A DNA stretch of 41,335 bases from positions 1-41,335 of the IMG/VR virus record IMGVR_UViG_3300025131_006924; one strand, written 5' to 3'. The notes under the pieces are model-generated. The model saw nothing but the letters and a program-made list of their open reading frames with translations, was not told where the DNA came from and did not search any database. Origin of the DNA: a virus. Position 1 is the first letter of the stretch. The number at the start of each line of letters is the position of its first letter. The position numbers and the translations under genes were made by a program. Shown piece after piece: positions 1-39,825 of this stretch.

Positions 1-364
1 ATTCTTTTGATATTGTAAGAGTCATAGTTTGAAAGTTAACAAGACCACCTAATTGATTCCACATACTGGATATTTTACTGTATTCATCTTTAATGCGGGG
101 TATTTTAATAAAATCTTGTTTGTTTTGGCGTCTTGCTATTTCTTGTTCTTCTTCACTTGCCGTTTGATACATAGATGCAATAAAACTATAATATTCATTC
201 TCTGTAGAGGTTAATATTAATTTGCCTTCCGTAAACTGCCAATAGAAGCCATCACGCGGATCTATGTACTTGTCTCCACCTGCCCAAGGCTTTATAACAT
301 CACTAATATTTTCGTGACGATGATCGTATACTTCTTTTGCTTCTAGTAATTGTTCAAATCTCAT
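1..364 (-). CDS. Leader-tagged hypothetical protein, C-terminus cut by window edge
   Basis: An open frame of 121 codons starts with ATG at 364 and runs off the left edge without a stop, so only the N-terminal part is visible. It begins MRFEQLLEAKE, the same kind of short leader with a Glu at about residue 8 that recurs through the window. The rest is mixed charged sequence with several Tyr and Trp residues and no family I recognise. Its start lies 11 bases inside the end of the upstream MORN gene (stop at 354), so the two are probably translationally coupled. A role as an internal head protein is inference from the leader alone. Confidence 0.75.
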   Translation of the reverse strand, partial: MRFEQLLEAKEVYDHRHENISDVIKPWAGGDKYIDPRDGFYWQFTEGKLILTSTENEYYSFIASMYQTASEEEQEIARRQNKQDFIKIPRIKDEYSKISSMWNQLGGLVNFQTMTLTISKE

Positions 365-644
365 CAGAACTTATACCGTTAACAAATGTACCGGTTGTTA
401 CTGAGCCATCGGCATGGGTCATAGTTCCGGCTCCATTCGGTTGTCCGTTGGCCCATTCGCCGTCATACTTACTTCCATCAGGATCAATTCCAACTCCGGA
501 TCCATTCATTGCTCCCAATTCCCATTGGCCTTCATATGTTCCACCATCTGGCCAAGTATAACTTCCTGTTCCGTGTGGTATTCCGTCTGCGATGTCTCCC
601 ATATAATTAGTCCCACTATTACCATATATTTCTATTTCAGCCAT
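354..644 (-). CDS. Short MORN-repeat protein
   Basis: This 96-residue protein is almost entirely MORN repeats, about four copies of a roughly 23-residue unit with the pattern Y-x-G-x-W/D...G-x-G. Clear units are YMGDIADGIPHGTGSYTWPDG and YDGEWANGQPNGAGTMTHADG, with a weaker copy between them and another at the end. MORN repeats form extended beta-hairpin solenoids that in other proteins bind lipids or act as scaffolds; no catalytic domain accompanies them here. The start is preceded by an AAAGGAAAA ribosome site. This copy is Asn/Ala/Asp-rich and has diverged from the two longer MORN proteins in the window, so it is not a recent duplicate of them. Confidence 0.85.
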   Translation of the reverse strand: MAEIEIYGNSGTNYMGDIADGIPHGTGSYTWPDGGTYEGQWELGAMNGSGVGIDPDGSKYDGEWANGQPNGAGTMTHADGSVTTGTFVNGISSDEI

Positions 645-678: not shown

Positions 679-1092
679 TTACTTTATTGTTTTCTTATGA
701 ATTGGATGATATCGCCAATCGTCTAGGCCTACATCATCATCATATTTGTCATGCCAATTAACATAATCACCTAATGTACCTTTTGCAAAATCATATGGGC
801 TACCACCTATTTCTACCCAATGGTGGGTCATGTATCCTCCTGTTTCGGCATCTCTTCCTTCGTCTGTTTCTAGTTCGCCAAACACACCAACTACTTCTTC
901 AGGAAATGCCCGGGCAACTGCATGAGCAGTATATTGGCATCCACCAAGTTCACAACTATCAACATATTCCTTCCAGGTACTATGTTCTTCATAATCCATT
1001 AAATGCTTTTTAATTTTATCTCGTAATTTATGGTGCATCCAATATTCATGTTCAGAAGTATCAATTTCAAATAAGTCGGCTAATCTAGGCAT
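679..1092 (-). CDS. Putative papain/transglutaminase-like cysteine hydrolase with head leader
   Basis: This 137-residue protein begins MPRLADLFEIDTSE, resembling the recurring leader. In the middle it has GGCQYTAHAVA, then HHWVEIGG about 50 residues later, then PYDFAKGTL. The order Cys (followed by a helix), His, Asp is the layout of papain-fold and transglutaminase-like hydrolases, with the His on a strand before a short turn. The family match is by pattern only; I cannot name a Pfam family. The gene overlaps the upstream 99-codon frame by 8 bases. If the leader is a capsid targeting signal, this would be a packaged protease or amidase. Confidence 0.7.
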   Translation of the reverse strand: MPRLADLFEIDTSEHEYWMHHKLRDKIKKHLMDYEEHSTWKEYVDSCELGGCQYTAHAVARAFPEEVVGVFGELETDEGRDAETGGYMTHHWVEIGGSPYDFAKGTLGDYVNWHDKYDDDVGLDDWRYHPIHKKTIK

Positions 1093-1369
1093 CTATTGCA
1101 CTCCGTACATACATTTCTTTATCTGAAATTCGTTGATAAAGTTTATCATTAGTTACGTATCCTTTTAATTGGGCTAACTTATCTATTAGTGGTTGCAATT
1201 TTTTATCTACTTGCCTATAAAGTTGTCCTTCAACTCCTGCATTAGAAGGAGCAAAGTTATACTTTCTTTTGTTTACTTTTGATTTAACTTCATATGGAGT
1301 GCTATCTATTCTTGTATAATCTTGGTGTTGCACAGGACCCAATTCCATTATTATTTCTCTTATTTTCAT
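1085..1369 (-). CDS. Leader-tagged small basic protein
   Basis: The likely start is the ATG at 1369, which overlaps the stop of the upstream 525-codon gene in an ATGA junction. A frame open to 1384 would add five residues but would lose this coupling. The 94-residue product begins MKIREIIMELG, with a Glu at residue 9, and continues as a basic, Lys/Gln-rich, mostly helical sequence. No family is recognised. It sits among other leader-tagged genes, which fits a small internal head protein like the T4 internal proteins, but this is inference. Confidence 0.75.
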   Translation of the reverse strand: MKIREIIMELGPVQHQDYTRIDSTPYEVKSKVNKRKYNFAPSNAGVEGQLYRQVDKKLQPLIDKLAQLKGYVTNDKLYQRISDKEMYVRSAIDA

Positions 1370-2949: not shown

Positions 2950-3612
2950 TTACCCATACAACCAATTCGCAACACGTTTATACTTAAAGTTAAACGCATT
3001 CATCATAAGTTCTATTTCACGCAAACATTCATCTCTGCCACCACCACCCATTAGTGCTGGTGTATATCGTTTTAAATCATTTGGTTCAAACCATGGAGCA
3101 CAATATATATTGTCAGTCGTCATAGTATGAATTAAATCATCATCTATTCCATATACGTTATTAACTTTTCTGTTGCCATCACTTAATATTGCTTTTAATT
3201 GATCTTCTTCTATATCTCGAGAATCATTTAGCCTGTTATTATACATATATCTGAAAACTCGTATTATCATCCAATCTTCTATATTATTATCCATCCAACC
3301 ACGTAAAAATGCATAACCTTTTTCCATAAAGTTTAAATCTGCATTTGTGTTTAATCCACGTTCAAAATAATGTTCTTGTACTTCTTCTTCAGTATCTTCT
3401 ATGCCAACATCCATTCCATTATAAAATATTAATGCTTTTCCATTGAAATTATTCAAATATTCAATTGCATTACTTAAAGAAGTATCATATCCTCCAGGAC
3501 CGGTTAATCGAGTACTAGTTGAATGTACAGGCTGAAAGTCTACAAGTATCACGTTACCACGAGCACCGTATGTTCGTTTTTCGTTTAGTTTTCTAATCTG
3601 CCTATATCTCAT
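2950..3612 (-). CDS. Conserved phage hypothetical protein, GGGxxECL C-terminus
   Basis: This 220-residue protein begins MRYRQIRKLNEKR, a variant of the recurring leader. A hydrophobic strand VILVDFQPV follows, then ALIFYNGMDVGIED, a central aromatic helical part, and MGGGGRDECLREIELMMNAF near the C-terminus. The combination of an N-terminal strand ending in Asp, a conserved YNG segment and the Gly-rich ECL ending recalls a widespread hypothetical family in marine phages and bacteria, but I cannot give it a name or activity. Its ATG overlaps the stop of the upstream 45-codon minigene (ATGA), so expression is probably coupled. Confidence 0.85.
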   Translation of the reverse strand: MRYRQIRKLNEKRTYGARGNVILVDFQPVHSTSTRLTGPGGYDTSLSNAIEYLNNFNGKALIFYNGMDVGIEDTEEEVQEHYFERGLNTNADLNFMEKGYAFLRGWMDNNIEDWMIIRVFRYMYNNRLNDSRDIEEDQLKAILSDGNRKVNNVYGIDDDLIHTMTTDNIYCAPWFEPNDLKRYTPALMGGGGRDECLREIELMMNAFNFKYKRVANWLYG

Positions 3613-3746
3613 TTATTATCCTTACTACGTCTACCGATTTCTATTGGATCTTTACGTTTAACCGCGGCCATTACTTTAGTCATAAGGTTATCATTTGCTA
3701 ATGTTTTTTCTCTACTGTATTCTAATAGAAACTCTTTATATCTCAT
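3609..3746 (-). CDS. 45-aa minigene copying the leader of the 525-aa protein
   Basis: A 45-codon frame with ATG at 3746 (overlapping the MORN gene stop as ATGA) and TGA at 3609-3611 (overlapping the next gene's ATG). Its first 34 residues are identical to the first 34 of the 525-residue protein downstream, beginning MRYKEFLLEYSREKTLAND. The last 11 residues are unique and basic. The two copies differ at four bases, all silent (GAA/GAG, TTA/CTA, AAC/AAT, ACC/ACT). Double ATGA coupling and exclusively silent change argue that this is a translated, selected gene rather than duplication debris. It could encode a free targeting or scaffold-like peptide; the alternative is a very recent partial duplication. 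Confidence 0.75.
   Translation of the reverse strand: MRYKEFLLEYSREKTLANDNLMTKVMAAVKRKDPIEIGRRSKDNK
3644..3746 (-). repeat. Direct repeat copy B (minigene)
   Basis: Second copy of the 103-base repeat, about 800 bases from copy A and in the same orientation. It forms the first 34 codons of the minigene, with only silent differences from copy A. Confidence 0.95.
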
Positions 3747-4753
3747 ATTTTAATTCCATCCTTCCATTCCCCTACATACTTGTGTCCATCAGGGTAAGTT
3801 TCCGTTCCTTGACCATTTTCTCTCCCATCTTTCCATTCTCCTATATACTTTTTCCTATCCGAGAAAGTGAATGTTCCTTGACCATTTCTTTCTCCATCCT
3901 TGAATTCTCCTTTATAGATACTTCCATTAGTGAAAATCATTGTTCCTTGACCATTTTGTTCCCCTTCCTTGAACTCCCCTATATACTTTCTTCCATCAGA
4001 CCAAGTGAATGTTCCTTGACCATTTTGTTTCCCATCCTTGAATTCCCCTATATACTTTCCTCCATTAGCCCAAGTGTATGTTCCTTGACCATTCCACCTA
4101 CCATCCTTGAATTCTCCAACATACTGTTGTCCATCAGAATAAGTTTCTGTACCTTGACCATTTTTTTGATCATCCTTGAATTCTCCTTCAAATATACTTC
4201 CATCAGGACGAGTGTATGTCCCTTGTCCATGTTTTAAATGTCCATTCCATTTCCCTTTCTTGTATTCCCCTTCATACTTTGTTCCATCGTTGTTATATCC
4301 TAATTCTGTTATATCAATTTCTTCATCATTTTTGTTATACCATTTACCTTCTTTAGGTGACCAATTATAAACGAATCCAATAAATTTTAATCCATCCCAT
4401 GTGATAAGCATTCCAACTCCATGTGGCAAGTGATTTTTGTGGTCTCCTACATATATTGCACCAGTGGGTAGTTTCCAATAACCTATACCATTTCGTTGAT
4501 TATCTTTATATTGGCCACAATATATTTCTTTTCCTTCAAAATATGTTTTTATTCCAATGCCTTTTGCTTTATCTTTATCAAATTCACCAACATATCTATG
4601 AGTTAGATTTCTAGATTCATACATTCCAATGCCATGTTCTTTCCCATTTATATAATCGCCAATATATCTTCTTTTTGTAGGTTCTGCACAAACTCCTATA
4701 CCTGTAAAATTTTGTTTAGTTTCTTCAGTAAGTTCCATTATACCTTTACTCAT
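3743..4753 (-). CDS. Long MORN-repeat protein (about 13 repeats)
   Basis: This 336-residue protein starts MSKGIMELTEET and then consists of MORN repeats with a 23-residue period. About five are degenerate (residues 30-130), followed by a short non-repeat stretch. About eight are near-identical units such as YIGEFKDGKQNGQGTFTWSDG (residues 155-336). The regular C-terminal array implies recent tandem expansion by unequal exchange. No enzyme domain is attached. A NATAAATA late promoter box lies 25 bases before the start (4778-4785). The likely role is a structural or membrane-binding solenoid expressed late. A paralogue with very similar units is at 35542-36321. Confidence 0.9.
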   Translation of the reverse strand: MSKGIMELTEETKQNFTGIGVCAEPTKRRYIGDYINGKEHGIGMYESRNLTHRYVGEFDKDKAKGIGIKTYFEGKEIYCGQYKDNQRNGIGYWKLPTGAIYVGDHKNHLPHGVGMLITWDGLKFIGFVYNWSPKEGKWYNKNDEEIDITELGYNNDGTKYEGEYKKGKWNGHLKHGQGTYTRPDGSIFEGEFKDDQKNGQGTETYSDGQQYVGEFKDGRWNGQGTYTWANGGKYIGEFKDGKQNGQGTFTWSDGRKYIGEFKEGEQNGQGTMIFTNGSIYKGEFKDGERNGQGTFTFSDRKKYIGEWKDGRENGQGTETYPDGHKYVGEWKDGIKI

Positions 4754-5075: not shown

Positions 5076-5753
5076 CTAATATTTATTAATTATTTTAACA
5101 TAATTTCCTTCACGAACCATAAGAGAAATACGGTTATCTTCATTTAACAAATTCCAATATGTATTTGCAATATCATCAACATCACCTGTTAATGGAAGCA
5201 ATATAGGTTCGCCTCGAAAGGGAGGTAACGGGTCTCCGTCTCCCATATATGTTGTTATGCAATATCCAACTCCCAAAGGTATATCTGAATATCGATAAAA
5301 ACAATGATCGGTATTGCCTGTATGATTTCTTTTTATAACAGATAGTGTTATGCATTGTTCGTTTTTATTTACATAGCCAGATATTCGAGGAGTATAATTA
5401 GGAGCATCAGGTTCGTAAGTCTCATATGCTAATGATGTTAAAAATCCGCTTCCTAGCATTAATTTATCATAAATCATATCTGTTTGTGATCCATTACTTA
5501 CAATAACATTATGTCCTATGCCTCGCATAGCATTATAAATTATTAGTGATGGATCTTTAACTAACGAAGGATCGGCGGCTTCAGTACTTAAAATATTATT
5601 TTTATATTTAAAAACTCTATTTCTACTATTATCACTGCGACCCATTATCCAATAAATTACAACCCATTCACTATCATGGTTACGCCCAATGATAATACCA
5701 CGACCCGGGTAACTATTATTTGATATGTGTGCTAAACTGTTATTCGCATTCAT
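5076..5753 (-). CDS. IMP cyclohydrolase-like protein (PurO type)
   Basis: This 225-residue protein matches the IMP cyclohydrolase family known from archaeal PurO and some bacteria. Landmarks in order are SYPGRGIIIG (residues 14-23), WIMGRSDNSRNRVF, DPSLIIYNAMR, VSNGSQTD, YEPDAPNYTPRISG and a terminal half with YCITTYMGDG. The enzyme closes the ring of FAICAR to give IMP, the last step of purine synthesis. It differs from bacterial PurH, in which this activity is fused to a transformylase. It overlaps the lipase gene by 14 bases. With PurE and a phosphoribosyltransferase elsewhere in the window it suggests that the phage boosts purine supply. I see no lesion, but exact active-site residues were not verified. 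Confidence 0.85.
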   Translation of the reverse strand: MNANNSLAHISNNSYPGRGIIIGRNHDSEWVVIYWIMGRSDNSRNRVFKYKNNILSTEAADPSLVKDPSLIIYNAMRGIGHNVIVSNGSQTDMIYDKLMLGSGFLTSLAYETYEPDAPNYTPRISGYVNKNEQCITLSVIKRNHTGNTDHCFYRYSDIPLGVGYCITTYMGDGDPLPPFRGEPILLPLTGDVDDIANTYWNLLNEDNRISLMVREGNYVKIINKY

Positions 5754-6567
5754 CGCAAAGTTTTGGAAAAATGTGTTCTTCTAATACATCATAATATTCT
5801 TGTATTGAATGGTCTCTACCATCTATTTCAAAAAATGACTCTTCTTCGTGACTCTCATCCCATTCTAATGTTTCTGGATTTATTTGAATTCCGGAATGAA
5901 GAAAAGGATAAGGAGGAAGAAAAGGCACAGGATCATTCCCAAAAGAAACACGGAAATGAGTGGGTCTATTTTCAAAAAAGGTCGTACTGACTTTGGGAGA
6001 ACCAAAAGTATATATTTGAACATCATGCCCCCTTTGGTCTAACCATAGACCAATTATTTGTGCAACTGCGCCACCCATTGAGTGACCCGTTAAATATACT
6101 ACTTGTTCTAATTTATAATTGTCATCAATATCTTCGAGTATAAACATGGCGGCATCTTTAAATCCACGATGTAAATTAATATCACAATGTCCTGGTTCTG
6201 TACCGCACCAGTGGTCAGTTAATCCGTCATCTTTCCATACTCTAAAATCAAGATCTGTTACTAAAGCATTTTTAGCACTTTTTGTACCTCTAAAAATAAG
6301 AATTGTCACACCTTGATCTTGTTTTACATGATATGAAAATTCATCTTTTCGTATTTCGTATAATTTATTTTCAGCAGTAGCTCGACGATATGATGTGTTA
6401 CAATAATTTGCCATTTCGACAAGTTCAAAAGGGTCTACCGGTAATGTATCTTTATTGCCATATTCGCCATCGCTTCGAAGTAATTTATTAGTCCATGCAC
6501 AACCATTAACCATGTATACTATGATTATTAGGAACAGCAATATAATTTTTCGAGCTTGCATATACAT
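5740..6567 (-). CDS. Secreted lipoprotein lipase, class 3 (alpha/beta hydrolase)
   Basis: The 275-residue protein has a hydrophobic N-terminus (residues 7-20) followed by VNGC, a plausible lipobox with Cys23 as the acylated residue. The mature part is a class 3 lipase: ILIFRGT strand, GHSMGGAVAQ nucleophile elbow with Ser163, FGNDPVPFLPP with Asp212, and DHSIQEYY with His253. These form a complete Ser-Asp-His triad. The family hydrolyses lipid esters. The predicted destination is the inner face of the outer membrane or the periplasm of a Gram-negative host, which would fit late membrane disruption or superinfection defence. ATG codons at 6567 and 6561 are both possible starts; a CATAAATA sequence overlaps the first. 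Confidence 0.85.
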   Translation of the reverse strand: MYMQARKIILLFLIIIVYMVNGCAWTNKLLRSDGEYGNKDTLPVDPFELVEMANYCNTSYRRATAENKLYEIRKDEFSYHVKQDQGVTILIFRGTKSAKNALVTDLDFRVWKDDGLTDHWCGTEPGHCDINLHRGFKDAAMFILEDIDDNYKLEQVVYLTGHSMGGAVAQIIGLWLDQRGHDVQIYTFGSPKVSTTFFENRPTHFRVSFGNDPVPFLPPYPFLHSGIQINPETLEWDESHEEESFFEIDGRDHSIQEYYDVLEEHIFPKLCDECE

Positions 6568-28678: not shown

Positions 28679-29152
28679 TTATTTTGTAACGAAACCATTT
28701 AAATAAGAAGTTTTTCCATTTTTAATTAAAGCAGTCATTGTTTTTTTTCTATTTGTTCCGTCTTTTCTGTATGAACAATGAATCCAACCACTATTAGGGC
28801 CTTCTAAGGGATTAAAGAATTCCAAGATGAGTTGATCAAATTGTAAATGATCTCTAATCCATGTTGCTAATTCTAAATTAGGTAATCCCATAATTTCAAA
28901 ATCAGCCGCTTCACCATTACAATGTTGACTTTTACTTGATCCACCAACGGCTTTATTGAGATTCGGACTGCGATAGCCACTATTTATTGTAACAACCCGT
29001 CCAAAATAACTTCGTACTGGTTGAAGTATGTGACAGCATAAATTTGTAAGATTAACTAGATGTTCTGTGCTTGGTAAATTATCTATACCTTTGCGTATAG
29101 CCGTTGTACTTTTTGTTAGTTCTTGCAAACTAAAATTTCGTGTAATTTTCAT
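28679..29152 (-). CDS. M15-type D,D-carboxypeptidase/endolysin
   Basis: A 157-residue protein of the peptidase M15 family. It has SGYRSPNLNKAVGG, then SSKSQHCNGEAADFEI (His77, Asp84) and SGWIHCSY (His125), the three zinc ligands. It starts NFSLQELTKS, usual for this family. It would cleave peptidoglycan stem peptides and is a plausible phage endolysin. It has its own late promoter box (29176-29183) and an AAAGGAA ribosome site. It follows a proline-rich tagged gene and precedes the replication genes. No signal peptide is visible. Confidence 0.88.
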   Translation of the reverse strand: MKITRNFSLQELTKSTTAIRKGIDNLPSTEHLVNLTNLCCHILQPVRSYFGRVVTINSGYRSPNLNKAVGGSSKSQHCNGEAADFEIMGLPNLELATWIRDHLQFDQLILEFFNPLEGPNSGWIHCSYRKDGTNRKKTMTALIKNGKTSYLNGFVTK

Positions 29153-29175
29153 ATTTTCCTTTCGGATTTATAGAA

Positions 29176-29183
29176 TATTTATT
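29176..29183 (-). promoter_or_regulatory. Putative late promoter box (AATAAATA)
   Basis: The minus strand reads AATAAATATTC, 24 bases before the endolysin-like gene, as expected for a late lysis gene. Confidence 0.55.
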
Positions 29184-30899
29184 TTATGGAGTAGCAAATC
29201 TTATTATACCTGAATTTTTTACCATATTCATGAGTTTTATTAATACAGGGATAGTTAGTCTAGCCGCAGATACTGTTCCGGCTATTGCTGAACCTGCACT
29301 AGCTACTGTTCCTGCTGGTAATAGAAGAGCTAAAGAGCCTAGCGTAACTCCGGTGCCTACAGCAAGATACTTTGCTACATCTTCACCAGTAAGATGTACA
29401 GCAGAAGATCCTGAACCAAAGTGATACATATCAGGATCTTTTGGATCAACATACTTATCTGTTACCCATTTCATATATGTAGTAACCGCTTGTTGATCTT
29501 TTTTAGATAATAAGTCATAATTACTGTTTATGTCTTTAATTACCGCTCGTTGTTCTTTGGTTGTATGATCACCTCGGGCAATATCTATAAGTTGGTTATG
29601 CATGGCCTGTTTAACAGGTCCACTAAGTTCTGGTTGAACGTAAGGAGTAATATCCGTGCCACCTGCAACTTTGCCTGGTTTTGGTGTTGAAAGTACACCT
29701 GGAGCAAATGTGAGCCTACTTAAATCTTTTGGTAACGTATCTGTTGTTTCGTCGCCTTTTTTTCGTCTTCCAGACCCAGTTACTTCACCACCACGAGTAA
29801 CAATATTTCCTTTTGGACCTATTTTTAATCCTGTGTCAAATGCTTGTTTTGAAATATATGCTTGCTTAGGATATACTACAGGTACTTGTTTTCCTGTTGT
29901 TTTACCTTTTGCATAACCTATTTTTCCTCCGCCTCCATCTTTTTGTGCTTTTTCAAATTGAGCTAAACTAGAGTAACCGAGGCCTTCCCAAAAATCTCTT
30001 GCGTCAACCCCTTTTTCTGGATTTCTAGGTGCTAAATCATCCTTTTTTAAATCTCTACGCCATGTAGGTACTACCCCTGGATTAAAAAATTGTCCTATAG
30101 CCTGTTTATCTAGTTCTGTTTTGGGTTGAATTGGAATTATTTCTTTCCATTCGTTGGGATGAATTTTCAACATTTCTGTTGTAGGATCTTCGACTCCTTT
30201 AAGTACTTTCCAGAATACTTTTTTTGCCTTATCAGATAAATCTGTATAATTTTTAATTTCACGTTTTGGTTCTTTTATTGGCGACGGGTCAAGGTCGGGC
30301 AATTCTAGTTCAAGTTCTGGTTTCGTAAATACTGGATCTTTAGCAAACGGAACAGGGTAAGCATGAGGTTCTCGGTCCTTCCACGGCGGAGGAATAGGAG
30401 GAAAGGCCGGACCAGTACCAATTCCTTGTCCTTTAGCACCCCATTTAGAACCGGCCGGGTCTGGTCTTTCAGGCATTTCAGGTTCAGGCATTTTAGGTTC
30501 AGGTAATTTTATTCCTGATATGTCAGGTTCAGGTAATTTTATTCCTGATATGTCAGGGTTAAACATAGGGATCTTGCCTGGATAAGGAATAGTTACAGGA
30601 ACCGTATCGGGGGCTAAAGCAAATTTCGGGTATTTTAATGGTTTATGTGCAAGCGAAGGAACAATTGCAGGAGCCAGTGGTGGTGGTGGTCCTGTACCTG
30701 GCACAAGTGGTGGTGGTGCAATAGGTACAGGTTTAAAGTCCCAGTTAGTTTCTATATCCGTTATTTTAGGTTTTTGGATACGTGGTTCATCAGGAATTCG
30801 TATTTTTGGTTTAAAGAAGGCTGCCGGACGAGTTGTTCCTCTGACCGTTTCTAATAATTTACTCTTTTTTTTAGAATTATCTAATTCTTCTATTTTCAT
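29184..30899 (-). CDS. Proline-rich rod-like protein with C-terminal membrane segment
   Basis: A 571-residue protein that starts MKIEELDNSKKKSKLLE then T, a long variant of the leader. Residues 20-200 are extremely rich in Pro, Lys and Glu, with PDISGIKLPE repeats; the encoding DNA has a 30-base tandem repeat. A helical middle part follows. The C-terminus has one or two hydrophobic stretches (YLAVGTGVTLGSLALLLPAG, and VSAARLTIPVLIKLMNMV). The combination suggests an extended shaft with a membrane-insertion end, for example a packaged protein that meets the host membrane during DNA entry. No family is recognised. Confidence 0.75.
   Translation of the reverse strand: MKIEELDNSKKKSKLLETVRGTTRPAAFFKPKIRIPDEPRIQKPKITDIETNWDFKPVPIAPPPLVPGTGPPPPLAPAIVPSLAHKPLKYPKFALAPDTVPVTIPYPGKIPMFNPDISGIKLPEPDISGIKLPEPKMPEPEMPERPDPAGSKWGAKGQGIGTGPAFPPIPPPWKDREPHAYPVPFAKDPVFTKPELELELPDLDPSPIKEPKREIKNYTDLSDKAKKVFWKVLKGVEDPTTEMLKIHPNEWKEIIPIQPKTELDKQAIGQFFNPGVVPTWRRDLKKDDLAPRNPEKGVDARDFWEGLGYSSLAQFEKAQKDGGGGKIGYAKGKTTGKQVPVVYPKQAYISKQAFDTGLKIGPKGNIVTRGGEVTGSGRRKKGDETTDTLPKDLSRLTFAPGVLSTPKPGKVAGGTDITPYVQPELSGPVKQAMHNQLIDIARGDHTTKEQRAVIKDINSNYDLLSKKDQQAVTTYMKWVTDKYVDPKDPDMYHFGSGSSAVHLTGEDVAKYLAVGTGVTLGSLALLLPAGTVASAGSAIAGTVSAARLTIPVLIKLMNMVKNSGIIRFATP
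30495..30554 (-). repeat. Two tandem copies of a 30-base repeat
   Basis: Two identical 30-base units (30495-30524 and 30525-30554) encode two copies of PDISGIKLPE in the proline-rich protein. Identical DNA indicates recent duplication. Confidence 0.9.
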
Positions 30900-31822
30900 T
30901 ATGCAGACTCAAGTTCTTTTGTTGCGTTAACAACAATTTTATCCCAACGTTTTGCAATAGAAGGATCAATGCTTTCCATTTCAACCGGAGGTAATTCGTC
31001 AACAACATCAACGGCCTCAGGCTCAGGAGCAGGCTCTTCAAGAGTCTGTGATTCGTAATCCATATATTGATATACAGAATTAACATTATCATTTGCTATT
31101 GCAATATGTGATTGCACCCAGCCTTCTATTTCTTCTGTATCGGCTATCATTTGGTGTAATTCAATAGCCCGTTTTGCTAACGAATATAATTGTGCCTTAA
31201 CTAAAACACCTTCATCGTCAACTGAATCTAATACACCTTCATTTATATTTTGTTCTTTTTGCATGACCATATAGTCCTCGCCTTTATCATATCCTTTAAT
31301 ATGTAAAAATTTTTCAATTTTATCGGCCCTGTCTTGATCAACAACTATTATATTATTTTCATGTCGTTGTATCTTGTCACCGACTTTTTGTAAAATAAGA
31401 TTTAATGCATCTTCATTATTAATTACCATAAATACTTCGCCACTATATACTGGCATTTCACTTGCTTCTGTTTGTTCGCCACCAATTAGATCACCAAGAC
31501 CGGCTTGTTTAAGTACACCTCTAGATATATTACCTAAATTTCGTAATCGCATTAACCTTGCAATGGCAGCCCTATCAACAGGTATTCCTTTTTTTCTCAT
31601 AGCCGCAATAATTTCGCCTATTGAGAATTCGTTAAGTATTTGTGATTCTGATACATTTTTTTTAATTTTTTTCTTAGGATTTCTGCGTACAATAGGAAAC
31701 ATGCCAACATCATTAGCATCAGCACTAACTACTTTTTCATTCGGTACTGCTGTAGATGTAGCAATATTGCCAGCACCTGTTGCTCCTGCTGAAGCGGTTT
31801 CTTGTAAATCTTTAAGTTTCAT
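30899..31822 (-). CDS. Leader-tagged protein
   Basis: A 307-residue protein beginning MKLKDLQETASAGATGAGNI, where DLQE then T fits the leader cleavage pattern. The Ala/Gly/Thr-rich follow-on, then a Lys/Arg-rich stretch (RNPKKKIKKNVSESQ), is reminiscent of scaffold-like or head proteins. The middle (IGEIIAAMRKKGIPVDRAAI, residues 70-90) is helical, possibly helix-turn-helix. A late AATAAATA box lies 19 bases upstream. The next gene begins at its stop (TAATG). Function unknown; packaging is inferred. Confidence 0.75.
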   Translation of the reverse strand: MKLKDLQETASAGATGAGNIATSTAVPNEKVVSADANDVGMFPIVRRNPKKKIKKNVSESQILNEFSIGEIIAAMRKKGIPVDRAAIARLMRLRNLGNISRGVLKQAGLGDLIGGEQTEASEMPVYSGEVFMVINNEDALNLILQKVGDKIQRHENNIIVVDQDRADKIEKFLHIKGYDKGEDYMVMQKEQNINEGVLDSVDDEGVLVKAQLYSLAKRAIELHQMIADTEEIEGWVQSHIAIANDNVNSVYQYMDYESQTLEEPAPEPEAVDVVDELPPVEMESIDPSIAKRWDKIVVNATKELESA

Positions 31823-31840
31823 TTGAAATCCCTATTACTA

Positions 31841-31848
31841 TATTTATT
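31841..31848 (-). promoter_or_regulatory. Putative late promoter box (AATAAATA)
   Basis: The minus strand reads AATAAATATAG, 19 bases before the 307-codon gene, in the short spacer after the nuclease-like gene. Confidence 0.55.
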
Positions 31849-32917
31849 ACCGTAACGACAATTGAGCAAACACTTCGTTAGGTTGGGTAGGTACAATGCT
31901 AGGCGGTAAAACTTTAATATGTTCGAACGCAGATCTAAATTCGTTTTCATTACTCACGCTTATTGCTATATCTGCGGTTAAATCAAAGAATAACATTCTA
32001 TCCCAATTACTTCCTGCTTTATATTGTTTAAATTGGGTAACGTAATATTCGTTAAGGGTTGTTTCTCTGTCATTAGATTTGCTAATCATAGTTGCTATGC
32101 GTTTACCATCAGATGATCCAATTATATTGCTTATTAATGGTAAACTAAGTTCATATCTTAACGAATTATTATTATATTCTTTATTACCTATAGTAGTTTT
32201 TTGTCCTACAGGTAATCGACTATTTAATAAATCTATATACTTGCCTGCAGATATACTTTTTGTAGAAATTTCCATTATATTATTATATTTTTGATTGAAC
32301 GCATCAAACACTTGTCGTTGTGCTTCAACAGTTACTGGTGGCTGGTGTCCTAGTCGTCCGCCCCCACGTCCTGCATCAGCACTCAATGCTGATTTTATCT
32401 CAACCAATGATCCGTCGATAATTAAATCGCCGCCGCCTGATTTAGGAAAAGCAATTCTGTTACTAAGTGTTGCAAGACCAAATTCTCCAGGCCCTTTACG
32501 GTTAATGTCTATACCAAATTTTATCAGTGCTTTAAATACTTTATAACCTGCGGCGCTACTAAAAACAGAACTGAGTTGTACTTGAGGCGATAACAATGCT
32601 TTTGTGTTTATTACTTTATCATCTTCTAAATCATTTAAGAAATTATTTATATTTTCTTCGTTAAATCCTGCAAGTCCATTAAAAATTATTTGTGATATTT
32701 CTCCGATAAACTTCTCAGACATTCCTCCGCCCAAGTTTGCTTGAATATCTTGAATGATTGAACTATGGCGTAAAGTATTATGTACTCTTGCTAATATACT
32801 AGCACTTTGCTTTGAATTATCAAGACTTTGGACAGTGGATATTATCTTACCTTTAATAGTAGATAAATCCATTTCATTTGCATTGTCTAATTCTTCAAAT
32901 AATTCGCCTAGTCTCAT
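31847..32917 (-). CDS. Leader-tagged PD-(D/E)xK nuclease-like protein
   Basis: A 356-residue protein with the leader MRLGELFEELDN. The central region holds GPGEFGLATLSNRI (Glu145), then GGGDLIIDGSLVEIKSA with Asp164, Glu173 and Lys175. A metal-binding Asp, then Glu-x-Lys on the next strand, with a helix carrying an acidic residue before, is the PD-(D/E)xK nuclease pattern. The rest has no recognised domain. A packaged nuclease could act on host DNA or rival phages after injection; this is inference from leader plus motif. ATGA coupling joins it to the 84-codon gene upstream. Confidence 0.75.
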   Translation of the reverse strand: MRLGELFEELDNANEMDLSTIKGKIISTVQSLDNSKQSASILARVHNTLRHSSIIQDIQANLGGGMSEKFIGEISQIIFNGLAGFNEENINNFLNDLEDDKVINTKALLSPQVQLSSVFSSAAGYKVFKALIKFGIDINRKGPGEFGLATLSNRIAFPKSGGGDLIIDGSLVEIKSALSADAGRGGGRLGHQPPVTVEAQRQVFDAFNQKYNNIMEISTKSISAGKYIDLLNSRLPVGQKTTIGNKEYNNNSLRYELSLPLISNIIGSSDGKRIATMISKSNDRETTLNEYYVTQFKQYKAGSNWDRMLFFDLTADIAISVSNENEFRSAFEHIKVLPPSIVPTQPNEVFAQLSLR

Positions 32918-33168
32918 TGTTTAACTCGTGTCTTCTTCTTATTATATTTACTCGTTTTTGTGGCATTATCTGATTTTTTATCTTTGTTCCATTTCCAAAG
33001 ATTACCCAGACCTACACTTACTGGTCCTTTACCAATTGATAATCCACCACCCTTTTTATTAAGGTTTACACCAACATTGGCTCCGCCTATGTTTTTTGCT
33101 AAATTAAGAAACCAACCCAAATCTTGTTCATAAATATTGTTGTTTTCATATAAATCTTGTATTTTCAT
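32914..33168 (-). CDS. Leader-tagged Gly/Lys-rich small protein
   Basis: An 84-residue protein with the leader MKIQDLYENNNIYEQ (DLYE then N), then a Gly/Asn/Lys-rich part (NIGGANVGVNLNKKGGGLSIG) and a strongly basic tail (TKTSKYNKKKTRVKQ). It has a GGAGGAG ribosome site. Positive charge would suit binding packaged DNA. It is ATGA-coupled to the nuclease-like gene. No family is recognised. Confidence 0.75.
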   Translation of the reverse strand: MKIQDLYENNNIYEQDLGWFLNLAKNIGGANVGVNLNKKGGGLSIGKGPVSVGLGNLWKWNKDKKSDNATKTSKYNKKKTRVKQ

Positions 33169-33169
33169 G

Positions 33170-33679
33170 TTACTCCTCCATTGGTAATAAATCTTGCTTG
33201 TTGTGTTCTGCTAAATATTGTCTGTTTTTCCAGTGTTCTTCTGTAAGTTCGTTTTTACTTCCGCCGGTGTATCCGACTGCAAAACCATTTTCACATAGCC
33301 ATCGGTTTACATTGGTCCAACCTCCGTACTCACCTTCTGAGTTGCAGTTTACCCAAACTTCGCCTAATATTCTTCCAAACTTGCCTCGGCTGTCTGCTTC
33401 AGGGCATCTAATTTGAATATCAATATCATCTCTATCAGACATAATTGCCCAATGTACCCATGACTTAAGATGTTTCTTACTAAGCAGACCGTATACTTTT
33501 TCATTTAAATTTCTTGTTCTAGATTCTGGTGTGTCTATGCCTAACATTCTTACACGATGTTTAACCATAACATCAAATCCTAAATCAAATACACAATCTA
33601 ATGTGTCTCCATCTATTACTTTTGTCACTGCTTCTACTCTGTAAATAAATGAACATTCGGTTTCCTTATAGGTTCCCAT
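33170..33679 (-). CDS. Staphylococcal nuclease-like endonuclease
   Basis: A 169-residue SNase-fold protein: VTKVIDGDTLDCVFDLGF, then HRVRMLGIDTPESRTRN with the active-site Arg and Glu, and SRGKFGRILGEVWV for the later active-site Arg. These match the three catalytic positions of micrococcal nuclease. No signal peptide or leader is present, so it likely acts in the cell. Substrate could be host DNA or RNA. An AAAGGAAA ribosome site precedes the ATG. Confidence 0.88.
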   Translation of the reverse strand: MGTYKETECSFIYRVEAVTKVIDGDTLDCVFDLGFDVMVKHRVRMLGIDTPESRTRNLNEKVYGLLSKKHLKSWVHWAIMSDRDDIDIQIRCPEADSRGKFGRILGEVWVNCNSEGEYGGWTNVNRWLCENGFAVGYTGGSKNELTEEHWKNRQYLAEHNKQDLLPMEE

Positions 33680-33706
33680 TTCGTAATTTCCTTTCTAATG
33701 GCCAGC

Positions 33707-34015
33707 TTATTTTGACCTGTTATTGTTATACGGATCTACCCTGTTATACGGATGACCAGGAGATAACAGTTCGGCAAATCTAATTCTCATATCTGTTATT
33801 TGTTTTTCTAATTCATCTAATTTGTTATATCCATCTGCAATATCTTTATTGATTTGTGGTATTTCTGAATCTTCTATTCTATGTTGTACTTTGTCTAACT
33901 CCATGACAGTTACGAATATCCATGATATACTTCCCACTAATGCTACCGTAACAAGTGGTAAAGCCGCCTTGAATAAAGAATGTTCTGCAATTGCTTGCAT
34001 TTTTTGTACTGGCAT
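33707..34015 (-). CDS. Single-span membrane protein with coiled coil
   Basis: A 102-residue protein: one transmembrane helix at residues 15-37 (FKAALPLVTVALVGSISWIFV), then a charged coiled-coil helix (DKVQHRIEDSEIPQ to LEKQITDMRIRFAEL) and a short Asn/Arg-rich tail. The topology is like i-spanins or antiholin-like proteins, but no spanin lipoprotein partner sits beside it. An AAAGGAAA site precedes the ATG. Function unresolved. Confidence 0.75.
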   Translation of the reverse strand: MPVQKMQAIAEHSLFKAALPLVTVALVGSISWIFVTVMELDKVQHRIEDSEIPQINKDIADGYNKLDELEKQITDMRIRFAELLSPGHPYNRVDPYNNNRSK

Positions 34016-34027
34016 TTTTATTTCCTT

Positions 34028-35545
34028 TTATTTTTGTAATATCATAGGGTAAATTTCATTTTCGTTACTTAACCAGCCACTCCCGCTCAGTTTGGAATGT
34101 GCTGGAGGAACGCTCCATATTGTTGTAGCAGTATCTGCTTCGTCTTGTGTTTTAAATACTGCTACACACCTTGTATATATACAATCAACAAACAACTCTT
34201 CTGGATGAAATTTGTATTGACTGGGTGTTTTAAAAATAAATTGACATTCTTCAAATGTACAATTTATAAATCCTGAATTATGTACTTTAACTAATTGATT
34301 CCATAATCTAGGTTCTAAAGCAAATGCTTCTCCATCAAATCCTAAGTTATAAGCATCAACCGAAAAAATAGGTTGTTGATGTAATATTCTTGGTTCTATT
34401 TTAGATTCGGGAGTATTCCATACTCGTGGATTAGATATAAATGGTGCAAATCCAGTTGCTATCGATTTCATACTGTCATCCACTTGTTTTAAAAATGTAT
34501 TATCACTAAATCGTTTTGTATCTAACCCAGTATCTCTGTATTGCATATGTTGATGAAAAAATGTTCGTGCTTGTTGTAGTTTTTCTTTAGGAATAACAGT
34601 TTTAAAATTACTATTAAATATTTTAACTACATTACTTGCTTCGCCTGAATCACTTTGTTTACGTTCAAAATAAAATCGTTTTAATTCTCGTAATGTTATT
34701 CCGCCAATTTCATAATCTAATAACATATTTTGTGATCTACCAACTTCTCTAGCAAATTTATAAACAAATTTTAAATAGTCTACTATTTCGTTATAATTGT
34801 TTGCTTGTCCGGACATGTTATCAAATACACCACGTAATCCTCGCCACTCTAATGTTCCTTGATGGTGCGGATTAAGTACATTATATTTGTCAAATATTCC
34901 CATGTGTAATTTATCAACTGTCTGTTGATGAGCAAATGCTAACTTGTTTTCTTTCGCTGTAAGATTATCTAGGCTTGCACGAAATCCGTCAACAGACCCT
35001 TCTAATTCATTTATACTAGCATATTCGCCTTCTTCGTATTGTGGAATACCTTTATATGTTTGGTAATTTTTGAATAACCCACTTTCTATAAAATATGCTG
35101 TAAACCAAGTTGTATCCATGCCACTAGTTTTTTCTAATTTCCCTAATCCAAAATGTGCATGAAATCCACATGTTTCATTTGTATATGCACCGTTATCTAA
35201 AAATTCTTTTACTATTCTTGCTACCTTTGTAAAGTTCGGAGGTGTTGCTGTTAATCGTGTTTGAGTATGTCCGTCTTCGTTTTTTATTAAACCTATATCA
35301 AATTCAGCTCCAAAATGTGTATCTAAATCATCATCATTTGGTGTAACACTTTGCTCGTCCATTCGTCCTAATCCATATTTGGCAACAATGCGTTCAATTT
35401 GAGGAGCAAGTTGTTCTAGGGTACCTGGTTCTAAATCATCAATTTGTGAACTAAATGTTCTTGCTCCTGGCACTACAATCTCCAATTCGAAACCAACAGT
35501 AATCTCACTGGCTATTGCTTCGGTAATTATTTCTCTTTCTCTCAT
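34028..35545 (-). CDS. Leader-tagged amidoligase-like protein
   Basis: A 505-residue protein starting MREREIITEA (ITE then A). Residues 17-23 are VGFELEI, followed by a long insert, EQSVTP and, at 124-134, ETCGFHAHFGL. Then NPHHQGTLEWRGLRG occurs around residue 225. This succession (G-x-E-x-E, SxTP, tGxHxH, then TxExR) is that of the amidoligase (COOH-NH2 ligase) family, which joins amines to carboxyls with ATP. The C-terminal 200 residues are unassigned. It may modify a peptide or cell-wall component after injection. Activity is inferred from pattern, not checked. Confidence 0.75.
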   Translation of the reverse strand: MREREIITEAIASEITVGFELEIVVPGARTFSSQIDDLEPGTLEQLAPQIERIVAKYGLGRMDEQSVTPNDDDLDTHFGAEFDIGLIKNEDGHTQTRLTATPPNFTKVARIVKEFLDNGAYTNETCGFHAHFGLGKLEKTSGMDTTWFTAYFIESGLFKNYQTYKGIPQYEEGEYASINELEGSVDGFRASLDNLTAKENKLAFAHQQTVDKLHMGIFDKYNVLNPHHQGTLEWRGLRGVFDNMSGQANNYNEIVDYLKFVYKFAREVGRSQNMLLDYEIGGITLRELKRFYFERKQSDSGEASNVVKIFNSNFKTVIPKEKLQQARTFFHQHMQYRDTGLDTKRFSDNTFLKQVDDSMKSIATGFAPFISNPRVWNTPESKIEPRILHQQPIFSVDAYNLGFDGEAFALEPRLWNQLVKVHNSGFINCTFEECQFIFKTPSQYKFHPEELFVDCIYTRCVAVFKTQDEADTATTIWSVPPAHSKLSGSGWLSNENEIYPMILQK

Positions 35546-36321
35546 TTTAAAAATTGCCCATCCATGAATTCCCCTTCATACTTGTGTCCGTCTGGTGAAG
35601 TGAGTGTTCCTTGACCATTCCTTTTCCCATTTACCCATTCTCCTTCATACTTAATTCCATCAGGTGAAGTTTCCGTTCCTTGACCATATATCTTCCCATC
35701 CTTCCATTCCCCAGAATACTTAACTCCTTCATTTGAAGACCATGTTCCTTGACCATTCTTTTTCCCATCCTTGAATTCCCCTTCATACTTGTCACCATTG
35801 GACCAGGTAAAAGTTCCTTGACCATTTGGTTTATCATCTTTGAATATCCCTACATACTTGTCTCCTTCAAAAGAAGTTAATGTTCCTTGACCATTTTGTT
35901 TCCCATCCTTCCATTCTCCAACATACTTATTTCCATCAGTGTAAGTGGATGTTCCTTGACCACTCATTATTCCATCCTTGAACTCCCCTACATACTTCTC
36001 TCCATTAGGGAAAGTCATTGTTCCTTGACCATTCTTTTCTCCATCCTTGAACTCCCCTACATACTTCTCTCCATCATGATAAGTTATTATACTATGCCCA
36101 TGTCTTAATCCATTTTTCCAGAGTCCTTCTTCTCGCCTTCCTACCCCTACTTTATCGGTATATATACCATATCCATGCCATTGTCCTTTTTCATTTACTT
36201 CACCTTCATATTTTCCGCCTGATATGTCATCAAACTTTAAAATAACTTTCCTTAATGATTTTTGTGGTTCTTTTTGACTTATACTACTAAGTTTTTTTAG
36301 TAGCTCATCATTTATTTCCAT
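35542..36321 (-). CDS. MORN-repeat protein (about nine repeats)
   Basis: A 259-residue protein. About 38 residues (MEINDELLKKLSSIS, basic) precede MORN units of 23 residues such as YVGEFKDGEKNGQGTMTFPNG and YEGEWVNGKRNGQGTLTSPDG. These are close in sequence to the repeats of the 336-residue protein 31 kb away, so the two genes are paralogues. It lacks the leader but lies between leader-tagged genes and is ATGA-coupled to the amidoligase-like gene. A solenoid scaffold or lipid-binding role is likely. Confidence 0.88.
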   Translation of the reverse strand: MEINDELLKKLSSISQKEPQKSLRKVILKFDDISGGKYEGEVNEKGQWHGYGIYTDKVGVGRREEGLWKNGLRHGHSIITYHDGEKYVGEFKDGEKNGQGTMTFPNGEKYVGEFKDGIMSGQGTSTYTDGNKYVGEWKDGKQNGQGTLTSFEGDKYVGIFKDDKPNGQGTFTWSNGDKYEGEFKDGKKNGQGTWSSNEGVKYSGEWKDGKIYGQGTETSPDGIKYEGEWVNGKRNGQGTLTSPDGHKYEGEFMDGQFLK

Positions 36322-36332
36322 TATATTATTGC

Positions 36333-36695
36333 CTAGTGATATAAAGTGTAAGGTTTACCAATTTCTTTATTTGGCCAATAGAAAATTTTAACATTCATGT
36401 TAGGTTTAGCATGAAACGTTTCTACTGGATATTCGCCTTTTCGGGCTAATTTTTTTGCTTCTTTTTTTGTATGTGTTGCAATACCTGCTTTTATTAATGC
36501 TTCTTCTTCTTCGGGCGTATACTTATGATACCGGATATCTTTTGCTTTTTTAATGGCAATTTGCAATGGAGTAGATGGTTCTTCATCATAATCTACTATT
36601 TCCTGTGAAGGTCTATGATACTTTGTTTTAACTCGATGTGGTTGTGTTCCTCTATTAAGGATACCTTTACCTTCAGATAACTCATATAGTTTCAT
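36333..36695 (-). CDS. Leader-tagged basic protein
   Basis: A 120-residue protein with the leader MKLYELSEGKG (ELSE then G, close to the T4 cleavage rule). It is very basic (RVKTKYHRPS, KKAKDIRYHKY) and includes a TPEEEEALIKAGIAT turn. This composition resembles small internal head proteins that bind DNA. Its ATG is fused to the stop of the upstream gene (TAATG). No family is recognised. Confidence 0.75.
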   Translation of the reverse strand: MKLYELSEGKGILNRGTQPHRVKTKYHRPSQEIVDYDEEPSTPLQIAIKKAKDIRYHKYTPEEEEALIKAGIATHTKKEAKKLARKGEYPVETFHAKPNMNVKIFYWPNKEIGKPYTLYH

Positions 36696-37126
36696 TACGG
36701 TCTTTGCCTCTTCTTCTGTAAACGTGCTTGTTGTACTTGTGCTATTGCGGCGTTAGCCTCTGGACTCATCTTACCTTGTGGTGCCGGTCTTGGTGATGCT
36801 ACTGGTAGTTTTGGTGATGCTATTGGATGTCTCTTTTTAGCGGCACTAGCAAGAGCCGGATCAACTTGACCTGTTCCATAACCAACAGGTGCCTTTGCTA
36901 ATTCAGATCCGTCGCCTGAGGTAGGTGGAGATTTTTTAACTATTTTTTTTCCAATTTCGCCTGCCATATGTGCTTTAGTTCCTATGCCTTTTACTTTTTT
37001 CAAATAAGGTAATACATGCTTTATCCCCTTCCACACATATGGCGCCATTCTAACTGCTCCGCCGATAACTGCTGGAAGTACTTCATCTACACGTTCTTTT
37101 TCTGTTATTACTTCATTTATTTTCAT
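36695..37126 (-). CDS. Leader-tagged basic, low-complexity protein
   Basis: A 143-residue protein starting MKINEVITEKERVDEVLP (ITE then K), then a hydrophobic AVIGGAVRMAPYVW segment and a Lys/Pro/Ala-rich disordered C-terminus (HPIASPKLPVASPRPAPQGK). A GGAAAG ribosome site precedes the ATG. Probably a DNA-associated or structural internal protein; no family recognised. Confidence 0.7.
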   Translation of the reverse strand: MKINEVITEKERVDEVLPAVIGGAVRMAPYVWKGIKHVLPYLKKVKGIGTKAHMAGEIGKKIVKKSPPTSGDGSELAKAPVGYGTGQVDPALASAAKKRHPIASPKLPVASPRPAPQGKMSPEANAAIAQVQQARLQKKRQRP

Positions 37127-37156
37127 TTAATCTTTCCAAGACTAATGACTGTTAGG

Positions 37157-39346
37157 TCAAGTATAGCCTTCCTTATGTGCTAATGCATGACATTGCTCGT
37201 GTGATAATCCTAGTTTAGCACATAACATGTGTAATTTTTTATGCATTACTTTACTATCTGGCGCAATGTTTGTTAATGTATGTGCCAATCTTTTTACTTT
37301 CTTTTTACCCTCTGAACCACAATCTTCATTTACCGATTCACTAAAATCTTCTTTCATTCTTTCATGCATACTAACAAAATCTTCGCCACTATGTAATCTA
37401 GGGTTAATTTCTTTTAACGAACTAACAAATCCTTTTACTGCATCAAAGGTACTCCATTCAGTATTCTCTGAAATTTCTTCCATTGTAAATGCGTCACCTT
37501 CATCATGTTCAACTGCATAATCATTCCACCAATGATATTGCCATCCATGGCCTTCTCCTCCTTCATCTTGATTAATTGCAGTTAAGACATCTAATATTTC
37601 TACTAATCTAGCTGATATAAACGTTGGGTTGTCTTCTAAATCCCATCTGCTTGGGCGTTTTGCATGTATTGCTAATTCAACTTCTTTTGCTCCATGACCA
37701 AAATAACCATTGTATGAGCCCTCAATATATTCAACTGCATTATAAAGTATTGTTGATTTAATTCCTGCTACCCAACCGTCAAGGATACCATCTTGAAGTG
37801 CTTGCATTATACCATCCGAAAAATCTCCACCGTGATTTTGTAAAAATTCCCATAAATCATCTTCTACTGTTGCTGGTTCTTCTCCACTTACTTTGGCTAA
37901 CTCCTCAATTATTATATGTCTTATTACTGGCGGGAGTTGAAAGTCTAATATTTCTTCATGTGGTATGCAACAACCTTCCTCTTCTGTTTTAGCTATGCCT
38001 AGTTCTTGTATATTCCACTCGCCGGTACCTTTTAAAAGTTGCCAATATGGTGAATCATGGAATTCAGCTTCTATAAGTTTTTCAAAGTTTGGATATTCTT
38101 CTGTAATTTGTGCTTCTATTAAATCTAATCGATAATCTTTCTTTAATGCTTCAAAATCTGCATTTATTAATTTAAAGTATGCACCGTCGCCCATAAATGT
38201 ATGAATAAACTTTTCTAAATTTTCATCTATCCCAATTTCTTGAACGTATTTCAGTAAATTGTCACCGCCTAGGGCTGGGGTTACCTTTACTAGTTCTTGT
38301 GCATCTGGCAAGTCCCATACGGAAAAATTTTCTTCTGGTAAATATCCTCCTCCGGCTATACCATCAACATATTCTGATGTTATCAATGCTCTAATTACAT
38401 CATGATATTTTTTAGTTGGTTTTTTATTACCATAGCCTTTCATTTCACCAAGCATACCTGTTTCTTGATTATGTATAAAAGTTAAATGTGGTACCCAATG
38501 ATTTTCTTTATGCGGATGTGGTGTTCTATAACTGTAAATTGTATCAGTTTCTTTTTGGCCGGCAACATTACCACAATGTCCCATTGAATCACCTTCGTCT
38601 TTACATTCTGCTCTATTTAAATTAAACCATGCCGATCCATCAGGAAATTTTATTAGCACATCAAACGTCTCATTCCATGTTCCTTCACCTTCGGGTCCGG
38701 ATATAGATCCACCATGTTCAATAGATCGTTTTTCATCTTTAAGACCTTGAAGCCATTCATCTTCTATTTCTTTCCATTCACCCATAGCTTCTAATGGAGG
38801 CATAGCGGGTTTAAGTGGCATTGCCCGTACTTTATCTGAAATACCGTGTGTTCCTAAAAAATGCACGAGTGCTTGTGCAAAACTAGATGCACTATCGTCA
38901 GGAAAAATACCTCTGTAAGCGTCAGGAAAATCGGCTAGTCGCCCTCCCACACCTAATTGTTTTGCTTTATTTTTTACTTTTTGAATTTCTTTATCTGTGA
39001 ATACATGATTATATTGCTCTAAAGATGTACGTTCAGGACTATCTGCAGGATAAACACTAGGTGAAACACTTGATAATTTTTGTGCTTGTTGTATAAGACC
39101 TAGTTTAGTATCTAATACCCACCAAGTCATAAGCCAAACCATCTTAGAATTGTCAACGGCACTATCCTCGGCCTCGCCTTTTCTAAGCCACCTTTTTGCC
39201 CAACTTACCATCTTATCAAATTCTTTTGTAATATTATTATAGGTTGGTGATTCAGGGCCATGATCAGGTTTAAGACCTTTTACAAGGCTATTACGCAAAT
39301 CATCTACTATGCTTTCTTGTAAAAAAAATACTTCTGACAGTCTCAT
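37157..39346 (-). CDS. 729-aa leader-tagged protein with GHCGN motif
   Basis: The second largest protein in the window, starting MRLSEVFFLQE then S. Around residues 239-260 it has AWFNLNRAECKDEGDSMGHC followed by GN, then HLTFIHNQETGMLGEMKGYG and NKKPTKKYH (to about 315). This Gly-His-Cys core with a following EMKGxGNxKP segment is of a type I recall in unannotated proteins of large marine phages; no activity is known to me. The C-terminal 60 residues (KKVKRLAHTLTNIAPDSKV to EQCHALAHK) are a separate His/Cys-containing helical domain. It is ATGA-coupled to the upstream gene. Confidence 0.85.
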   Translation of the reverse strand: MRLSEVFFLQESIVDDLRNSLVKGLKPDHGPESPTYNNITKEFDKMVSWAKRWLRKGEAEDSAVDNSKMVWLMTWWVLDTKLGLIQQAQKLSSVSPSVYPADSPERTSLEQYNHVFTDKEIQKVKNKAKQLGVGGRLADFPDAYRGIFPDDSASSFAQALVHFLGTHGISDKVRAMPLKPAMPPLEAMGEWKEIEDEWLQGLKDEKRSIEHGGSISGPEGEGTWNETFDVLIKFPDGSAWFNLNRAECKDEGDSMGHCGNVAGQKETDTIYSYRTPHPHKENHWVPHLTFIHNQETGMLGEMKGYGNKKPTKKYHDVIRALITSEYVDGIAGGGYLPEENFSVWDLPDAQELVKVTPALGGDNLLKYVQEIGIDENLEKFIHTFMGDGAYFKLINADFEALKKDYRLDLIEAQITEEYPNFEKLIEAEFHDSPYWQLLKGTGEWNIQELGIAKTEEEGCCIPHEEILDFQLPPVIRHIIIEELAKVSGEEPATVEDDLWEFLQNHGGDFSDGIMQALQDGILDGWVAGIKSTILYNAVEYIEGSYNGYFGHGAKEVELAIHAKRPSRWDLEDNPTFISARLVEILDVLTAINQDEGGEGHGWQYHWWNDYAVEHDEGDAFTMEEISENTEWSTFDAVKGFVSSLKEINPRLHSGEDFVSMHERMKEDFSESVNEDCGSEGKKKVKRLAHTLTNIAPDSKVMHKKLHMLCAKLGLSHEQCHALAHKEGYT

Positions 39347-39825
39347 GAATAACTTTTTCCTTTTTTAGCATCTCTTGTTGCAACTGCATACATAACTGAT
39401 TCCCCATCTTTACCATATTGATCAGTAAAATTTTTCTTATGAGGTTTTAACTTTTTAACATTATGTTCTACATTGCCTTCTTCTTTATTCGTAAGTTTGC
39501 GTTCATTCATATGTGCTTTATATTTTTTACTACCTTTTGGATGAGGACTTTTGCCTTCATTTTGTTGGTTTTGATAAAATTCTTTAAATTGTCTATCTAT
39601 TTCTTCGGCCCATCTTTTTTGTTCTTCTTCGGTATCGGCGCTTTGCATATTATCATATGCTACTTGAGCTTTAGGTTCACTACTTAGTAGACTTGATAAC
39701 ATACCTGCTCCCCGCATACCCATGCCTGCTATTCCTCGTAATGCCGCACCGCCTGCTCCTCGTAAAAGAGTTGGCCCAATAATTCTTGCAAGTCCTGCAA
39801 GGGGAGCAAATTCATATAATCTCAT
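39343..39825 (-). CDS. Leader-tagged Gly/Arg-rich protein
   Basis: I choose ATG 39825, which overlaps the upstream stop as ATGA and gives MRLYEFAPLAG; ATG 39837 adds four residues. The 160-residue product has an Ala/Gly/Arg-rich N-terminal half (RGAGGAALRGIAGMGMRGAG) and a C-terminal half ending in KKNFTDQYGKDGESVMYAVATRDAKKGK. The last motif (F-x-x-x-YG..GE..MYA..A...AKK) recurs in head-associated proteins of T4-like marine phages, in my recollection. Packaging is inferred. Confidence 0.7.
   Translation of the reverse strand: MRLYEFAPLAGLARIIGPTLLRGAGGAALRGIAGMGMRGAGMLSSLLSSEPKAQVAYDNMQSADTEEEQKRWAEEIDRQFKEFYQNQQNEGKSPHPKGSKKYKAHMNERKLTNKEEGNVEHNVKKLKPHKKNFTDQYGKDGESVMYAVATRDAKKGKSYS

Follow-up and report, generated by a model that had tools for sequence, protein, structure and literature searches.

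A minigene repeating the start of a leader-bearing gene, and a putative capsid-targeting tag, in a fragment of a marine giant phage

The T4 proteins IPII and IPIII start with MKTYQEFIAEA, as read from the T4 record, and within the T4 leader residues 4 and 7 have been identified with targeting and residues 8 and 10 with processing (PMC9026906). Short homologies also let T4 amplify and delete segments (PMC9391042). Among cultured phages, Pseudomonas phage PA5oct and Salicola phage SCTP-2 encode a T4-type prohead protease and gp23-type capsid genes along with homologues of the 525-codon gene considered here; the PA5oct homologue, EST35_0205, is annotated as a structural protein on the basis of ESI-MS/MS. 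The DNA studied here (the window: the whole 41,335-nucleotide stretch of IMG/VR record IMGVR_UViG_3300025131_006924) is a fragment of a marine giant phage.

Using the ORF listing and a codon-by-codon comparison, a 45-codon minigene, MRYKEFLLEYSREKTLANDNLMTKVMAAVKRKDPIEIGRRSKDNK, was identified at 3609-3746, between a MORN-repeat gene (3743-4753) and a gene for a 220-aa protein with the leader-like start MRYRQIRKLNEK (2950-3612); the 525-codon gene follows at 1366-2943, all four being on the minus strand. The minigene and the 525-codon gene have codons 1-34 in common, with differences at 4 of 102 nt (codons 5, 7, 18 and 23), all of them synonymous. This is what the sequence-only reading had claimed, and the real extent of the homology is to codon 39, with silent differences at I37 and G38 and an identical R39. 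At codons 35-36 both amino acids are replaced (minigene IE vs TT in the 525-codon gene, 5 nt changes), so that "all synonymous" is valid for codons 1-34 only. The two copies thus compared, 3630-3746 in the minigene and 2827-2943 in the 525-codon gene, both minus strand, are not a chance likeness, since a search within the window gives the second copy an E-value of 2e-21 and the repeat finder reports 114 nt at 92% identity with a spacing of 803 nt.

Past codon 39, comparison of the minigene tail with the 525 gene, both that of the window and that of its relative, detects no homology, which rules out a longer homology with the 525 body, and nothing obvious is common to the two copies 5' of their start codons; the duplication thus begins at the start codon and stops at about codon 39. 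The six final codons, unrelated to the 525-codon gene, contain the Shine-Dalgarno sequence of the 220-aa gene, AAGGA (3619-3623, minus strand), which lies 6 nt before its start in the upstream sequence cgtagTAAGGATaataa that leads directly into its ATG. That two strain variants were joined in metagenome assembly is very unlikely. The evidence is a single contig and the two copies differ as strain variants might, but all frames are intact and there is no evident overlap to seed a false join, because the junction past codon 39 joins sequences without detectable homology.

The sequence-only reading was also correct in placing ATGA overlaps at both ends of the minigene, with the MORN gene and with the 220-aa gene. 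These overlaps, together with the AAGGA in the tail, would fit a minigene that matters only as translated sequence 5' of the 220-aa gene, with re-initiation at ATGA and an irrelevant peptide. We consider such coupling quite improbable: it would not conserve amino acids, direct coupling to the MORN gene would have been possible, and the ATGA arises easily. Leader genes here often start ATGAGA, and any upstream frame in register stops there, so the downstream overlap by itself is weak evidence.

Relatives of the window were reached via its DNA polymerase; the 525 and 220 proteins, used as single queries against viral contigs, gave no match, a scan of cellular genomes for relatives was empty, and for the 220-aa gene neither phages nor the near contigs yielded a relative. 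Only two near relatives holding the 525 gene were found, G011 and G026. The comparison of the same locus in related phages, proposed with the sequence-only reading, goes against a conserved microprotein, in that both have a 525 homologue with a single leader copy, different neighbours and no minigene. The slot is thus a variable cassette. In G011 two other leader genes (MRYRELLTE and MRFREVIKE) lie between an 89-aa gene and the 525 homologue; the matching interval of the window is occupied by the MORN gene, the minigene and the 220-aa gene. Past the 525 gene the two genomes again differ, up to a common gene starting MRFEQLLEAKE, which in the window is cut by the window end (1-364, minus strand) and is similar to the gene that in G011 lies just past the 525 homologue.

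Some other features of these genomes may be recorded here. Three MORN-repeat-like proteins lie in or beside the leader clusters of the window (354-644, 3743-4753 and 35542-36321), one of them confirmed by Pfam and two recognized by eye. An IMP cyclohydrolase-like protein (5076-5753) overlaps a class 3 lipase gene (5740-6567), and both are also neighbours in G011. A region of about 47 kb in G011 (C1:51787-98979, L045-L047) is on the opposite strand and includes several genes with radical-SAM-like cysteine motifs (by eye), which is unusual for a phage.

The minigene is best explained, with a probability that we put at about 0.6, as a truncated paralogue, the start of a 525-type gene left by recombination. 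It would derive from codons 1-39 of a 525-type paralogue or allele, left behind when phage recombination swapped cargo cassettes upstream of the 525 gene; the same exchange would have introduced the 220-aa gene together with a ribosome-binding site of its own, and the minigene frame past codon 39 would simply run out in that gene's upstream sequence and start codon. The 45-residue product, if translated, would carry the tag and, as with other tagged cargo, should be taken into the prohead and cleaved after E9. The route through recombination is presumptive, and the peptide presumably has no required role. Against a remnant stand the open frame and the silence of all changes on the minigene branch, since an old neutral remnant would look otherwise; nor did a scan for the DPIEIG variant turn up a donor copy.

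When G011 serves as outgroup, the minigene branch takes three of the four silent changes (nt 15, 19 and 69) and the 525 branch the remaining one. For random changes, three out of three silent has a probability of 0.7-2.6%, depending on transition bias, which hints at constraint on the sequence, though such constraint could date from a time when the copy belonged to a full-length gene. Silent divergence is thus weak evidence for selection on the peptide: the minigene-branch changes in codons 1-34 are indeed all silent, but there are only three of them and divergence before truncation explains the pattern equally well. A conserved peptide is also disfavoured by the two replaced residues at 35-36 and by relatives that lack the minigene.

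The same silent changes, along with an open frame within an operon, are what would be expected if the minigene encoded a functional small internal head peptide, its leader taking it to the prohead, the protease removing nine residues and a basic 36-residue peptide staying in the head. Other phages do have small proteins (51-68 aa) that bear the leader, several of them visibly basic, and one of 66 aa adjoins the 525 homologue in the more distant relative G027. Such a peptide is nevertheless unlikely: G011 and G026 have no minigene, no other leader was seen with so short a body, and the body is merely the start of the 525 protein, with codons 35-36 both replaced. Somewhat less probable still is the proposition that a nearly body-less capsid-targeting leader has been selected as a gene product of its own, either packaged or tuning the loading of tagged cargo into the head. 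The idea that came with the sequence-only reading, of a free leader peptide that competes with or nucleates the packaging or protease machinery, found no evidence in its favour. The minigene product would bear a complete targeting signal, but comparative support is lacking, both relatives are without it, and it would be a lone copy among many tagged competitors; we regard this as highly improbable. Function as a free peptide is, in general terms, possible but unsupported, and a truncated paralogue is preferred.

Whatever its origin, the minigene draws attention to its leader. The start MRYKEFLLE (3720-3746, minus strand), with a predicted cleavage after E9, was aligned with T4 IPII and IPIII using the functional positions of PMC9026906. 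With one gap, the Y, F, I/L and E of MRYKEFLLE and of T4 MKTYQEFIAE fall in the same columns, so that the window leader has Y, F, L and E at T4 positions 4, 7, 8 and 10 and all four mapped positions match; M1, F7 and E10 are invariant over eight aligned leader sequences. The features of a T4-type capsid-targeting sequence (an N-terminal propeptide of 10-20 residues with Y4, F7, I/L8 and E10) are thus present, as a match of sequence only. These first nine or so residues are most likely a T4-type capsid-targeting propeptide common to many cargo genes of a giant phage. The earlier guess of a head-type leader is well supported by this match and by the mass-spectrometric annotation of the PA5oct 525 homologue as a virion protein, though in a check of 105 PA5oct genes the pattern occurs in 2 MS-detected and 2 undetected genes and so does not separate the two groups.

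A T4-type prohead protease (Pfam PF03420) was found in each of the five tested leader-bearing contigs of 258 kb or longer and in 7 of 14 leader-bearing contigs overall. Because the fragments of the nearest relatives, searched with T4, PA5oct and SCTP-2 as positives, yielded neither a protease nor a capsid gene of T4 type, we infer targeting in the window virus, and cleavage after the E of its leader, only from the likeness to T4. (An earlier Pfam protease search of near relatives was also empty, but had no positive control and is hence uninformative.)

Leader-like starts are also seen on about a dozen other window genes, which form two clusters at 1-3.7 kb and 28.7-40.4 kb; 1 of the 13 pattern matches lies in the block between. 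The first cluster includes a gene starting MKIREIIMELG, at an internal Met of a listed 99-aa ORF (1085-1369, minus strand), and in the second (28679-40361, minus strand) the starts are MKLKDLQE, MRLGELFEE, MKIQDLYE, MREREIITE, MKLYELSE, MKINEVITE, MRLSEVFFLQE and MRLFELALNE. Across five contigs, the window and four relatives, two leader patterns fit 22 and 30 of 491 gene starts, as compared with 0 and 3 of 1970 internal Met controls and with 1.5 and 3.0 in shuffles. Since some starts had been seen before the patterns were drawn up, gene starts were crudely called and two contigs overlap, these counts serve as a guide and should not be taken for independent tests. In G027 the 525 homologue lies within a run of genes starting MRA[QH]EF[VIL]xE, and a degenerate DNA pattern for MRAHEFIxE matches at least 120 stretches of viral contigs. 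At 80 loci among the matches listed, of at least 120, 133 leader ORFs of at least 40 aa fall into 23 body clusters without detectable similarity (clusters defined at E<1e-3); the same leader is thus found on unrelated cargo, in clusters of genes in both the window and G027. A 729-aa leader-bearing protein of the window (37157-39346) is related to SCTP-2 gp31 (E 9e-23), which starts MRLNNLFES. Very small leader-bearing proteins of 51-68 aa, with several bodies that are unrelated to one another and often basic, are found at L112, L138, L139, L160, L113, L118 and others, and are candidate internal head proteins of other phages.

The 525 protein, in which the leader MRYKEFLLE is combined with a WCTA-motif domain, has homologues in Pseudomonas jumbo phages by homologue searches. 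Its near homologue in G011 (51% identity) starts MRYREFLLEYSREKT, the distant one in G027 MRAQEFLLEYSRDIT and the L087 member of the family MRAKEFILEYNQTKT. Pfam and PHROGs give no function for it, and against solved structures only designed helical-repeat proteins are matched, in a helical stretch; an AlphaFold model built from four sequences had a mean pLDDT of 37 and was left out of the fold search. At least four SCTP-2 paralogues have MK[VI]xHITQYLFES[YF]KDAQ in common (L080 14526-15932, 22423-23757, 23759-25402 and 26733-27464).

What the minigene leads to is a nine-residue tag, probably a label of head cargo in a wide range of uncultured giant phages. With such a tag, unknown proteins, among them candidates for host takeover and counter-defence, could be predicted from sequence to be packaged cargo, and the minigene suggests a way in which tagged cassettes get shuffled, leaving fragments.

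Compared with described systems, EST35_0205 of PA5oct is homologous to the 525 protein (E ~1e-21) and has the leader-like start MKLFEVFTLYE, but it and the related jumbo-phage homologues differ in having 28% identity, one place per record and no minigene in the region read. SCTP-2 gp34, gp45, gp46 and gp48 belong to the same family by profile, and about 40 N-terminal residues are common to these nearby paralogues, so that repeats of the N-terminal region of the 525 family are not unique to the window; unlike the minigene, they are long genes, not truncated, and their leader has diverged. Segmental duplication and deletion through short homologies in T4 is a process able to yield duplicated, truncated segments such as that of the window, where the end product alone is seen. 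The T4 capsid-targeting sequence (IPI, IPII, IPIII and Alt) is, like the window leader, N-terminal, about 10 residues long, of the form Y..F[IL].E, common to otherwise unrelated cargo, and terminated by a gp21-type (hydrophobic)-x-E site; the likeness is drawn from the residues themselves, and targeting and cleavage in the window would follow by analogy. The window leader differs in being one residue shorter, in standing on many more genes per genome, and in having one copy almost alone as a minigene.
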